From assembly GCA_020845895.1 (NCBI GenBank), contig JADLEX010000057.1:1-64000 (forward strand): a DNA stretch of 64,000 nucleotides, read 5' to 3'. Position numbers and translations under genes: made by a program. The notes under the pieces were generated by a model that was not told where the DNA came from, searched no databases, and saw nothing but the letters and a program-made list of their open reading frames with translations. Below, one piece after another: positions 43,109-50,297 of the stretch. Position 1 is the stretch's first letter. The number at the start of each line of letters is the position of its first letter. Source of the DNA: Deltaproteobacteria bacterium (GTDB taxonomy: Bacteria; Lernaellota; Lernaellaia; JACKCT01).

Positions 43109-44527
43109 TCACGCACGCTCGCGGATCTTCACGCCGTACTTGCGCATGAGGGCGTGGAAGTTCGTCCGCTGCATCCCGGTCTCTAAGGCGGCTTTTGAGA
43201 CGTTCCAGTTCGCCCCGTCGAGCGCGCGCAAAATGAACTTCTGCTCGACCTTTTCGTAGGCCATCTCGCGGATGCGCTTCTTGATGTCCTTGAGTTCGTC
43301 CACGTTCTTCGGGATCTCCCACTCGTCCTCATCCATCGCCCCGCGGCCCGCGGCGATGGCGCCCGGCAGGTCGCTTTCCTCGATCAGCTCCGAGTCCGCC
43401 GTCGCGACGAGGCGCTCGACGATGTTCTTGAGCTCGCGCACGTTGCCCGGCCACGCGTAGGCGATCATCTTTGCCACCGCACCCGTCGAGAATCCTTGCA
43501 CCGGCGTCGTCGTGCATTCGCGGGCAAGGCGCAGGAAGTGCGTCGCGAGCAGGGGGATGTCGTTCATGCGCTTGCGCAGCGGCGGAATGTTGATGGGCAG
43601 CACGTTGATCCGGTAAAAAAGGTCCTCGCGAAACTCGCCGCGCTCCACCATCTGCGCAAGATCCTTATTCGTCGCGCAGATCAGGCGGATGTCCACCTCA
43701 TGCCCTTTCGTCGCCCCGACGGGCCAGATCGTCCGGCTCTCCAGCGCGCGCAGCAGTTTCCCTTGCAGCTCGAGGGAAATGTTCGAAATCTCGTCGAGAA
43801 AGAGCGTGCCGCTCGCCGCGAGCGTGAAATAGCCCGGATGATTGCGCATCGCGCCGGTGAACGCGCCCTTGACGTGGCCGAACAGCTCCGACTCGACCAG
43901 CGTGGGCGATAGCGACGACAGATCGACCGGCACGAAAGGCTGCGACGCGCGCAGACTGTTTTGATGGATGGACGCCGCGACGAGTTCCTTGCCCGTTCCC
44001 GACTCGCCGAAGATGAGCACGGAAAAGTCCGTGGGCGCGACCTTGAGGATCTGTTTTCGCAGCTCCTCCATGGTGTCGGATCGCCCGATGATGTCGGCCT
44101 CGGCGGCGGTGCGCGACAGCTCGCTCTTGAGAAACTCGTTCTCCTGACGCAGACGGTGATTTTCGAGCGCCTGAGTCACCGCGTGCGCGAGTTCCTCGGG
44201 AGTGAAGGGCTTGGGGATGTAATCGAACGCGCCCTTCTTGATGCACGCGATGCTGGTCTGGATCGTGGCGTAGCCCGTGATGATGATGATCGGCATCGAG
44301 GGCCGCGCGGCCTTGATACGCTCGAGCACCTGCTCGCCCGGCAAGTCGGGCATACGCAGATCGACGAGGGCGAGGTCGAAGCGACCGGACTCGGCGGTGC
44401 GCACGCCGTCCTCGCCGGACAGCACGTACTCCACGTGGTGCCCCTCTTCCTCCAGAATCCGTTTGCAGGTCACGCATACGGACTTTTCGTCGTCGATCAC
44501 GAGAATGTTCGCGGAAGGTCTGGTCAT
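43109..44527 (-). CDS. NtrC-family sigma-54-dependent response regulator
   Basis: An activator of sigma-54 RNA polymerase. Residues about 1-125 are a receiver with acidic pocket (VIDDEKS), phosphoacceptor in LALVDLRMPD and Lys in YIPKPF. The central AAA+ domain has Walker A GESGTGKE, the GAFTGA loop (KGAFTGAMRN) that contacts sigma-54, and GTLFLDEIS (Walker B). The Fis-type HTH is at the C-terminus (NVSKAALETGMQRTNFHALM). 472 residues. ATG 44527 follows GGGGA. It lies 33 bases after the sensor kinase gene, in the same operon. The divergent operon at 47084 has a sigma-54 promoter and is the obvious target. Confidence 0.96.
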   Translation of the reverse strand: MTRPSANILVIDDEKSVCVTCKRILEEEGHHVEYVLSGEDGVRTAESGRFDLALVDLRMPDLPGEQVLERIKAARPSMPIIIITGYATIQTSIACIKKGAFDYIPKPFTPEELAHAVTQALENHRLRQENEFLKSELSRTAAEADIIGRSDTMEELRKQILKVAPTDFSVLIFGESGTGKELVAASIHQNSLRASQPFVPVDLSSLSPTLVESELFGHVKGAFTGAMRNHPGYFTLAASGTLFLDEISNISLELQGKLLRALESRTIWPVGATKGHEVDIRLICATNKDLAQMVERGEFREDLFYRINVLPINIPPLRKRMNDIPLLATHFLRLARECTTTPVQGFSTGAVAKMIAYAWPGNVRELKNIVERLVATADSELIEESDLPGAIAAGRGAMDEDEWEIPKNVDELKDIKKRIREMAYEKVEQKFILRALDGANWNVSKAALETGMQRTNFHALMRKYGVKIRERA

Positions 44528-44560
44528 GTCGAATCCCCAAATCGGGCCGCCCGACGCGCG

Positions 44561-46543
44561 TCAGGCGAACGAGACCGCCTGACTCTCGATCGCCATGAGG
44601 GGCAGCGTGACGACGAGCGTCGTCCCCTCCCCCACGGCGCTTTGCACCTGGATCATGCCGTTGTGTTTCTTGATGATGCCGAGCGACACGGAAAGACCGA
44701 GCCCCGTACCCTTGCTCTTGCCTTTGGTCGTGTAGAACGGTTCGAAGATCTTCTTCAGGTCGTGCTCGGGAATGCCGGTGCCGGTGTCTTTCACGACGAC
44801 CTCGGCGAACGCGCCGCTGGAATCGTCGTCCACCGAGATCTCGATGCGCGCGGGGGCGTCGGGCAGCGCGGCGCGCCGGTCGCGGATCGCCTCCGCGGCA
44901 TTGAGCACGACGTTGGTGAAGACCTGCTGCAACTGCCGGGCGTCGGCGTGGACGAACAGGTGCCCGGGGAAATATCGCGGCTCGACCGTCACCATGTTCA
45001 TCGCGCCGTAGTTGCGGATGAGCCCCAACGTGTCGCGCACGACTTGATTCAGGTCGATCACCTTTTTTGCGATCGGGCGCTCGCGCGCGAAATCGAGCAG
45101 GCCGGCGACGATCTCCCGGCAACGTGTCGTTTCGGCGACGATGATCTCCAGGTCTTCGCGCTCGGGAGCGCCCTCCTTTGCATGCCGCAGCATCAGGCTC
45201 GACAGGCTGAGAATCGACGTCAGCGGATTGTTGATCTCGTGCGCGACGCCGGCGGCGAGACGGCCGATGGAGATCTGCTTTTCGACTTCCGACAGCCGAT
45301 GCTCCGTCGCCTCGCGCAGCATCTGGTCGCGCTCCTTCACCGCCTGAATCATGCGGTTGAATGCTTTCGACAGACGCCCGAGTTCGTCGGAGCTGTGCAG
45401 CCGGACCTTGTGGTCGAGGTCGCCCGCGGCGACCCGGCTCATGCCCTCGGCCAAGTCGGCCAGCGGACGGCCCAGCCACGCGGCGAACAGGTACGACATG
45501 ACGATGCCGAAGAGCATGCCCGCGCCGATGAGGCTGGAGAACAGCGCGATCGTCTTCTCCTGCGCGGCACGGTATTCGCCGACCGTCGTGCCGATGCCGA
45601 GCATGCCGATGATGCGCTCGTTCGCGTCGCGAATCGGGCGGTACGCCGTGTAATATTGGACCTTGGCGACCTCGGCCACGCCGATGTACCGCCCGCCCTC
45701 GCCGATCACCTTTTCCGCGACCCTGGCGTCGGCGGCCGAAAGAATCGGGATCTGGTATTCCTCGGCGGTCGCGTTGCCGGTGTGGACGTTGGCGGTCGTG
45801 ATGCGCCGGTCACCCTGAAACACGGTGGCCGCGACCCCGACGGCGTCGGGCGCGTCGTCGCTCGGGCGCATCGCGCGAATCATCCGCTCCACGGGCGACG
45901 AGCGTCCGTTCACGATCGACGCCGCGAACGCGACGCCGATGAGATTGCGCCGGCGATCGTATACCGGCGCGGCGCACGCGATCGCGAGCATGTGTCCATC
46001 GACACCGAACTCGCGCATGCGCTCCGACAGCGCGACGGACGGGGCGACCAGCGCGACATCGCGAATGGGCAGCAGTAGCGGCGACGCAATGGCGCGCCGC
46101 TGCCGGGCCGCGTCGCGGATGATGTTCCACTCGGCTCCGAGACCATTCAGATCGACGTTGCCCGCGTCGTCGGACTGCGTGACGGAGAGGATGTCGAACT
46201 GCTCGCGGCCGGGAGATAGACGAAGGACCGTTTCGTCCGCGGCCTGGATGTCGGGGTGCGGACCGGCCGCGACCGACTCGAGCATCGTGCTCATGAAGTC
46301 GAGCTCGTTCTGCCACACCTGCCAGGCGATCATGAGGTCGGAGTCGGCCTTCGACTTGGCGAGCGAGAGGATCTGGCTACCGAGCACCGCGTTGCCGATC
46401 GCGATGGTGGCGGTCGCGGAGCTGAAGATCAGCACGACGAACGCGAGCGTCAGGCGGGTTCTCCACGTGATGCGGGCGATCCGCCGCGTCACGGTCTTCA
46501 GGAAGGGCTCGGGTTCGGGGCTTTCGTCGTCGGTGGGCAGCAC
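44561..46543 (-). CDS. Membrane sensor histidine kinase (cache-HAMP-HisKA)
   Basis: The sensor partner of the sigma-54 activator. TM1 at about 28-52 and TM2 at about 325-350 flank a large periplasmic domain of about 270 residues, of the double/single cache type (GNVDLNGLGAEW, GIGTTVGEY near its end). Then HAMP (ADLAEGMSRVAAGDLDHKVR), HisKA (GVAHEINNPLTSILSLS with the phosphorylated His) and HATPase (NVVLNAAEAIRD, DTGTGIPEHD, GTGLGLSVSLG). 660 residues. Start GTG 46543 follows GAGTGGGGA. Cache domains typically bind small organic acids or amines; the ligand is not identifiable. Confidence 0.95.
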   Translation of the reverse strand: MLPTDDESPEPEPFLKTVTRRIARITWRTRLTLAFVVLIFSSATATIAIGNAVLGSQILSLAKSKADSDLMIAWQVWQNELDFMSTMLESVAAGPHPDIQAADETVLRLSPGREQFDILSVTQSDDAGNVDLNGLGAEWNIIRDAARQRRAIASPLLLPIRDVALVAPSVALSERMREFGVDGHMLAIACAAPVYDRRRNLIGVAFAASIVNGRSSPVERMIRAMRPSDDAPDAVGVAATVFQGDRRITTANVHTGNATAEEYQIPILSAADARVAEKVIGEGGRYIGVAEVAKVQYYTAYRPIRDANERIIGMLGIGTTVGEYRAAQEKTIALFSSLIGAGMLFGIVMSYLFAAWLGRPLADLAEGMSRVAAGDLDHKVRLHSSDELGRLSKAFNRMIQAVKERDQMLREATEHRLSEVEKQISIGRLAAGVAHEINNPLTSILSLSSLMLRHAKEGAPEREDLEIIVAETTRCREIVAGLLDFARERPIAKKVIDLNQVVRDTLGLIRNYGAMNMVTVEPRYFPGHLFVHADARQLQQVFTNVVLNAAEAIRDRRAALPDAPARIEISVDDDSSGAFAEVVVKDTGTGIPEHDLKKIFEPFYTTKGKSKGTGLGLSVSLGIIKKHNGMIQVQSAVGEGTTLVVTLPLMAIESQAVSFA

Positions 46544-50241: not shown

Positions 50242-50262
50242 CGCCCGACCTTCACACCGATT

Positions 50263-50297
50263 GGGCCGGGGGGTGACCCCGGCCCGTTCTTTTTCTT
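50263..50297 (+). terminator. Intrinsic terminator of the sigma-54 operon
   Basis: GGGCCGGGG (50263-50271) and CCCCGGCCC (50277-50285), 9-bp perfect stem with 5-base loop, followed by GTTCTTTTTCTT. A textbook Rho-independent terminator, 20 bases after the oxidoreductase stop. Confidence 0.92.

Follow-up and report, generated by a model that had tools for sequence, protein, structure and literature searches.

A probable sigma-54-associated respiratory gene module combining an EtfD-like oxidoreductase with non-catalytic relatives of serine recombinases

Enzymes of the serine recombinase family are known for cutting DNA. In this study, we examined a locus at positions 43109-50297 of a 64,000-nt stretch of contig JADLEX010000057.1 (the window), in which two small relatives of these enzymes, here called pseudo-recombinases A and B, precede the gene for a membrane oxidoreductase that resembles EMO of Syntrophus and EtfD of mycobacteria. 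This operon diverges from one that encodes a histidine kinase and an NtrC-type regulator. Sequence comparison indicates that the pseudo-recombinases are a single, catalytically dead branch of the serine recombinases that is co-inherited with one clade of EMO, often behind a conserved dyad and a sigma-54-like promoter. We consider it fairly probable that the locus is a compact self-regulated respiratory module, in which the kinase and regulator would act through sigma-54 to express EMO together with non-catalytic pseudo-recombinase adaptors.

Results

Sequence and predicted structure of the pseudo-recombinases

Pseudo-recombinases A and B match just the N-terminal part of the Pfam Resolvase family. 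An AlphaFold2 model of A, built from six relatives, had a confident core (pLDDT 80.8), and its best Foldseek matches among solved structures were the catalytic domains of serine recombinases, namely TP901-1 integrase, IS607-type TnpA and Bxb1 (best 3bvp and 6dgc, E ~1e-6); by model and matches, the protein has the serine recombinase catalytic fold. Alignment with true recombinases of the searched genomes bore out the description of both proteins in the initial annotation as recombinase-fold proteins without catalytic residues. The catalytic serine and the neighbouring arginine of the YxRVST block and the Asp-Arg of the KLDRxxR block are absent in 15 of 15 members, which therefore lack the two blocks (YxRVS and KLDRxxR) of an active serine recombinase. 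A role as functional site-specific recombinases that invert DNA to switch the operon, for which the fold and family match alone would speak, is hardly conceivable without these residues (KLDRLSR in the Asp-Arg block), and we rejected an active recombinase or invertible switch on this ground.

What the family has kept is specific to it. The arginine of RPG is retained in nearly all members, all have the motif (W/F/M)D..SQ..R (one with AQ for SQ) at the position of DTSxPMGR in the true enzymes, and all share a two-residue deletion. Helix E is shortened to ~13 residues and is followed, in place of a DNA-binding domain, by a disordered linker and a short tail. The tail of A, RPRKLQFTHL, is conserved, and the pattern (R/K)PAxLxF recurs in A of the window and of genome G002, in loci L052, L053 and L054, and in genomes G455 and G453 (G and L labels denote the genomes and loci of the relatives searched, G000 being the window's own genome). 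Compared with the catalytic domains of gamma-delta resolvase, TP901-1 integrase and IS607-type TnpA, the pseudo-recombinases are alike in fold and in detectable sequence kinship but lack the catalytic residues and the DNA-binding part, and have their own motif set and their own clade.

In a tree, the 15 pseudo-recombinases formed a single clade against the true recombinases (support 100/100), and they appear to have descended once from a serine recombinase. The A/B pairs of the window lineage and of G196 and G327 arose by separate duplications. The phylum of G125 has a second copy at another locus, where it follows an intact receiver domain in a single fusion protein, with a kinase and an NtrC regulator alongside. 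The small reading frames are truncated, catalytically dead and upstream of an enzyme gene, as decaying or hitch-hiking recombinase remnants or mere leader frames for translational coupling might be, but such an origin is very improbable for one clade over at least five phyla that has invariant motifs of its own, a conserved C-terminal tail, two independent duplications and one receiver-domain fusion. G366 and other weak profile matches were not accepted as family members, being true recombinases by motif or context.

Conservation across phyla and co-inheritance with EMO

The initial annotation had staked its reading on the co-occurrence of the four components in related genomes, and we found them together in other genomes and other phyla. 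The gene order in G002, from a sister family, is identical to that of the window. In another phylum, G196 and G327 carry a tandem pair of pseudo-recombinases transcribed divergently from a kinase and a regulator; EMO follows the pair in G196, and the G327 contig stops before that point. Within Krumholzibacteriota, contig L054 carries a kinase, a pseudo-recombinase and EMO, and G455 and G453 have the full set of parts. A pseudo-recombinase lies directly upstream of EMO in the phylum of G125, with no linked kinase at that pair, and Acidobacteriota L052 and L053 have the pair with neither linked kinase nor linked regulator. The family spans at least five phyla and is rare: it is present in two of seven genomes of the window's own phylum and was not found in ~380 genomes sampled across the domain. 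As a side observation, the kinase frame of G002 (L006, 5317-7314) passes into another frame after ~466 residues, a frameshift or an assembly error.

We built a tree from 29 EMO-like proteins, and all 10 EMOs linked to a pseudo-recombinase fell into one 13-member clade (100/100). Mapping the linkage on this tree took four changes, such as a single gain with three losses, as opposed to 8.4 in shuffles, of which 0 of 500 were as low. Judged by these trees, the pseudo-recombinases are co-inherited with one EMO clade.

Identity of the membrane oxidoreductase

The best solved relative of the product of 48124-50241 was mycobacterial EtfD (PDB 9ojn, E 5.7e-99). EtfD passes electrons from electron transfer flavoprotein (ETF) to menaquinone (PMC13083937), and the Syntrophus homologue EMO carries out the equivalent reaction with methylmenaquinone (PMC8805022). 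Like these proteins, the window enzyme combines in one chain a NarI-like membrane domain, a ferredoxin-like di-cluster domain with two [4Fe-4S] sites, and two CCG domains. Its residues C461, C496, C533, H535, C536, C585, C621, C622, C659 and C662 align with the D1-D4 ligands of EtfD (PMC13083937) and its two ferredoxin cysteine sets also align, so that all Fe-S ligand positions are kept. EMO proteins carry two b hemes and EtfD one, along with a quinone site. In the membrane part of the window enzyme, three histidines (H82, H216 and H234) are invariant in four relatives. Residues 496-497 are Cys-Cys, as compared with Cys-Thr in EtfD; C497 stands at the position of EtfD Thr539, as in heterodisulfide reductase (PMC13083937), and the D1 cluster may be a noncubane [4Fe-4S] cluster like that of heterodisulfide reductase and not a linear [3Fe-4S] cluster.

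Genes nearby point to fatty acid breakdown. In L052, the pseudo-recombinase/EMO pair has FadJ-like and thiolase genes close by; in the phylum of G125, genes for NDP-forming acyl-CoA synthetases are found in the vicinity of the pair or of its kinase; and in the window's genome, elsewhere from the module, a FadR-type TetR gene stands beside EtfB. The conservation of the ligand residues seen in the EtfD structure and the adjoining beta-oxidation genes of relatives agree with the EMO-like identity that the initial annotation had given, and the enzyme probably moves electrons from fatty acid breakdown, carried by reduced ETF, to menaquinone. Another CCG-type oxidoreductase, related to heterodisulfide reductase, lactate dehydrogenase or TfrB, would account for the extra cysteine, for an operon without an ETF gene and for the NCBIfam matches (best partial match TfrB, LdhH also matched, all below cut-off). 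We regard this as distinctly unlikely, as EtfD far outscores the other solved relatives (the subunits of heterodisulfide reductase reach E 5e-12), the single-chain membrane fusion is that of EtfD and EMO, and both the genes noted in L052 and the G125 phylum and the FadR-type TetR/EtfB genes speak for an ETF:menaquinone oxidoreductase. Compared with EMO of Syntrophus, EtfD of mycobacteria and FadF of Bacillus, the window enzyme is alike in its single-chain membrane build, its domains and all EtfD cluster-ligand positions, but it has the additional cysteine at D1, its own divergent sigma-54 two-component system and pseudo-recombinase companions.

Predicted promoter and regulator site

A consensus sigma-54 promoter, part of the initial annotation, proved to be a perfect match (46957-46971) that never arose in 1000 dinucleotide-shuffled versions of the 200 nt upstream. 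In the window, G002, G196, G327, L054 and G147, a sigma-54-like site precedes the first pseudo-recombinase by 61-127 nt, and none was found upstream in L052, L053 and L055-L057. RpoN is encoded in 11 of 11 genomes tested.

The initial annotation also named an activator-like dyad, without coordinates. No equivalent of an obvious GC-rich dyad (46880-46907) was found in the sister genome, and it was discarded as an activator site; a conserved dyad does exist at 46737-46753. We searched five divergent regions exhaustively for all 4-mer dyads with spacings of 3-15, and GTAT-N9-ATAC was the sole dyad present in five of five, with shuffled sets reaching at most three of five. Both Krumholzibacteriota loci found later (G455 and G453), which served as hold-outs, contain the dyad, one of the two in three copies. 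It occurs in none of the 19 regions taken as controls from upstream of different EMO genes. The window's genome (4.98 Mb) has just four copies, and we rejected a wider regulon defined by the dyad. One of these four (L135, 1501-1517; G000 contig C156:2073-2089) is positioned ~330 bp ahead of a gene for a FadR/YsiA-type TetR, and EtfB follows that gene. With no good sigma-54 site near, this copy is only suggestive of a link to the module, which we do not claim.

The window has the parts of an NtrC-type sigma-54 system: a receiver domain, an AAA+ domain with GAFTGA, a Fis-type helix-turn-helix, RpoN in the genome, a -24/-12 promoter and an upstream dyad. From its conservation, GTAT-N9-ATAC is the predicted binding site of the window regulator. 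In the recognition helix, the regulators of the G125 phylum have glutamine where other module regulators have threonine or proline. Upstream of the pseudo-recombinase and EMO in three loci of that phylum (L027, L028 and L029), we noted two perfect or near-perfect dyads GGTGAATA-N7-TATTCACC, ~120 bp apart, with the 4-9-4 spacing of the window dyad and another half-site. Conserved promoters, conserved dyad and RpoN together support the earlier interpretation of the locus as an EMO module under sigma-54 control.

Sensor kinases

The kinases differ between lineages. Cache-type kinases are found in the window, G002 and G453. The kinases of G196 and G327 match 6TM_PilS in Pfam and contain GGIENPF, and thus have the six transmembrane segments and the GGXXNPF motif of RegB-type kinases; this motif is the quinone-sensing motif of RegB (PMC8191878). 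The window kinase has Cache and HAMP domains, and GGXXNPF is missing from its translation. In the phylum of G125, the periplasmic part of the kinases includes CARCH and CQTSLCH (CxxCH-like motifs). Quinone sensing in the G196/G327 lineage would be a fitting way to control an enzyme whose reaction reduces the quinone pool. The likeness to the quinone-sensing kinases RegB/PrrB is confined to the G196/G327 kinases and has its limits, in that Pfam places their membrane part near PilS and their partner is NtrC-type, not RegA-type. With AtoSC/ZraSR-type systems that have a divergent target operon, the module shares the layout and the domain make-up of kinase and regulator (the best NCBIfam matches of the regulator and kinase are AtoC and AtoS, below cut-off), but its target is an electron-transfer enzyme with pseudo-recombinases and its dyad is GTAT-N9-ATAC.

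Locus layout and neighbouring genes

The kinase and regulator genes and the three target genes are open frames with the expected Pfam domains (Table 1). The divergent operons with their 540-base gap and the strong terminator closing the target operon all lie where the initial annotation had placed them.

Table 1. Coordinates of the features of the locus in the window
Feature	Position	Strand	Details
NtrC-type sigma-54 response regulator	43109-44527	-	Pfam Response_reg, Sigma54_activat and Fis helix-turn-helix; relatives aligned; receiver, AAA+ with GAFTGA, Fis-type helix-turn-helix TGMQRTNFHALMRKYG
Membrane histidine kinase	44561-46543	-	Pfam periplasmic Cache domain (sCache_3), HAMP, HisKA and HATPase
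Intergenic region between divergent start codons	46544-47083		Exactly 540 bp
Conserved dyad GTAT-N9-ATAC (GTATAGCAAATCCATAC), proposed regulator site	46737-46753		~200 bp upstream of the sigma-54 promoter
Sigma-54 promoter TGGCAC-GCGTG-TTGC (-24/-12)	46957-46971	+	Score 14/14
Pseudo-recombinase A	47084-47560	+	Pfam Resolvase, E 1.3e-9, sole Pfam family matched
Pseudo-recombinase B	47589-48038	+	Paralogue of A (39% identity); Pfam Resolvase only, E 6.2e-6
EMO/EtfD-like membrane oxidoreductase	48124-50241	+	Pfam Nitrate_red_gam, Fer4 and two CCG domains
Intrinsic terminator	50262-50286	+	10-bp stem, 9 of 10 pairs G-C, followed by a T-run

A link to defence or phage was dismissed: PADLOC gave zero matches for the window proteins, and the PHROG match was solely to a generic integrase family. 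Elsewhere in the window, 37931-40915 (-) encodes a 994-aa protein whose two halves are both radical-SAM-like (CPNNCVGC and CNTDCVPC), an apparent internal duplication. The neighbouring genes 52309-52989 and 52718-53653 (C-terminal part of the latter) are very similar and lipoprotein-like, with a DDDDSDDE-rich start and the motif GLMWQTGYSCDNRT; they represent a recent tandem duplication.

Discussion

In the module that we propose, a membrane kinase would sense a redox or metabolite signal, the type of sensor varying by lineage, and would phosphorylate the NtrC-type regulator, which on GTAT-N9-ATAC would activate the sigma-54 promoter at 46957-46971. The transcript would yield the two pseudo-recombinases and EMO, and EMO would use reduced ETF as electron donor for the menaquinone pool. 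The pseudo-recombinases would not act on DNA; they would be protein-protein adaptors on EMO, with a role in its assembly, docking or gating, reporters of the state of EMO to the two-component system, or both. With DNA cutting and DNA binding both lost, we infer that they most probably act through contacts with other proteins. EMO is the favoured partner, since the pseudo-recombinase gene remains its neighbour even where no regulator is linked; the signalling proteins are possible partners too, given the receiver-domain fusion in the phylum of G125.

The pseudo-recombinases could instead be transcriptional co-regulators: by binding to DNA or to the NtrC-type regulator, they would adjust the sigma-54 promoter in an autoregulatory manner and would not affect the enzyme itself. 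Recombinase ancestry, the receiver-domain fusion with its neighbouring NtrC regulator and the independent gene duplications in the window and G196 lineages would agree with such a role. We think it unlikely, as there is no DNA-binding domain behind the shortened helix E, and as the gene remains by EMO in Acidobacteriota in which linked kinase, linked regulator, dyad and sigma-54 site are all missing, which favours a role at the enzyme over one in expression. We tentatively propose, as a serious possibility, that a family of catalytically dead serine recombinases devoid of DNA-binding parts now serves as a subunit that acts on proteins alone, in signalling or as an adaptor, where electrons from beta-oxidation enter the quinone pool. 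The family would link the condition of EMO to a two-component sigma-54 switch dedicated to it, and in one phylum would itself form the output domain of a response regulator.

Several observations weigh against the proposed module. It contains no ETF gene. The sigma-54 matches are weak in G149, G148, G150 and the two hold-out loci (G455 and G453), and the loci of the G125 phylum bear a different dyad, GGTGAAT-N9-ATTCACC, twice in G149, G148 and G150. Three members of the EMO clade (L055, L056 and L057) have no pseudo-recombinase anywhere in their genomes, and therefore the pseudo-recombinase is not essential to EMO.

Taken singly, EMO and the NtrC system are ordinary, known ingredients. In the open-licence literature we found no description of the pseudo-recombinase family, its association with EMO or the GTAT-N9-ATAC dyad, nor of inactive serine recombinases as signalling proteins or response-regulator output, and resolvases and recombinases go unmentioned in a survey of sigma-54 regulons. 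Through the conserved 17-bp dyad, the regulatory part of the proposal is directly open to testing in vitro. What sets the family apart is that a coherent branch of the serine recombinases seems to have lost cutting and DNA binding, yet has been retained, with duplications and a single receiver fusion, and invariably in the company of one respiratory enzyme or the signalling genes that go with it. If our proposal is true, the recombinase fold would have found a new use in a job away from DNA, and uncultured phyla would possess an undescribed layer of control over the entry of electrons from fatty acid oxidation into respiration.

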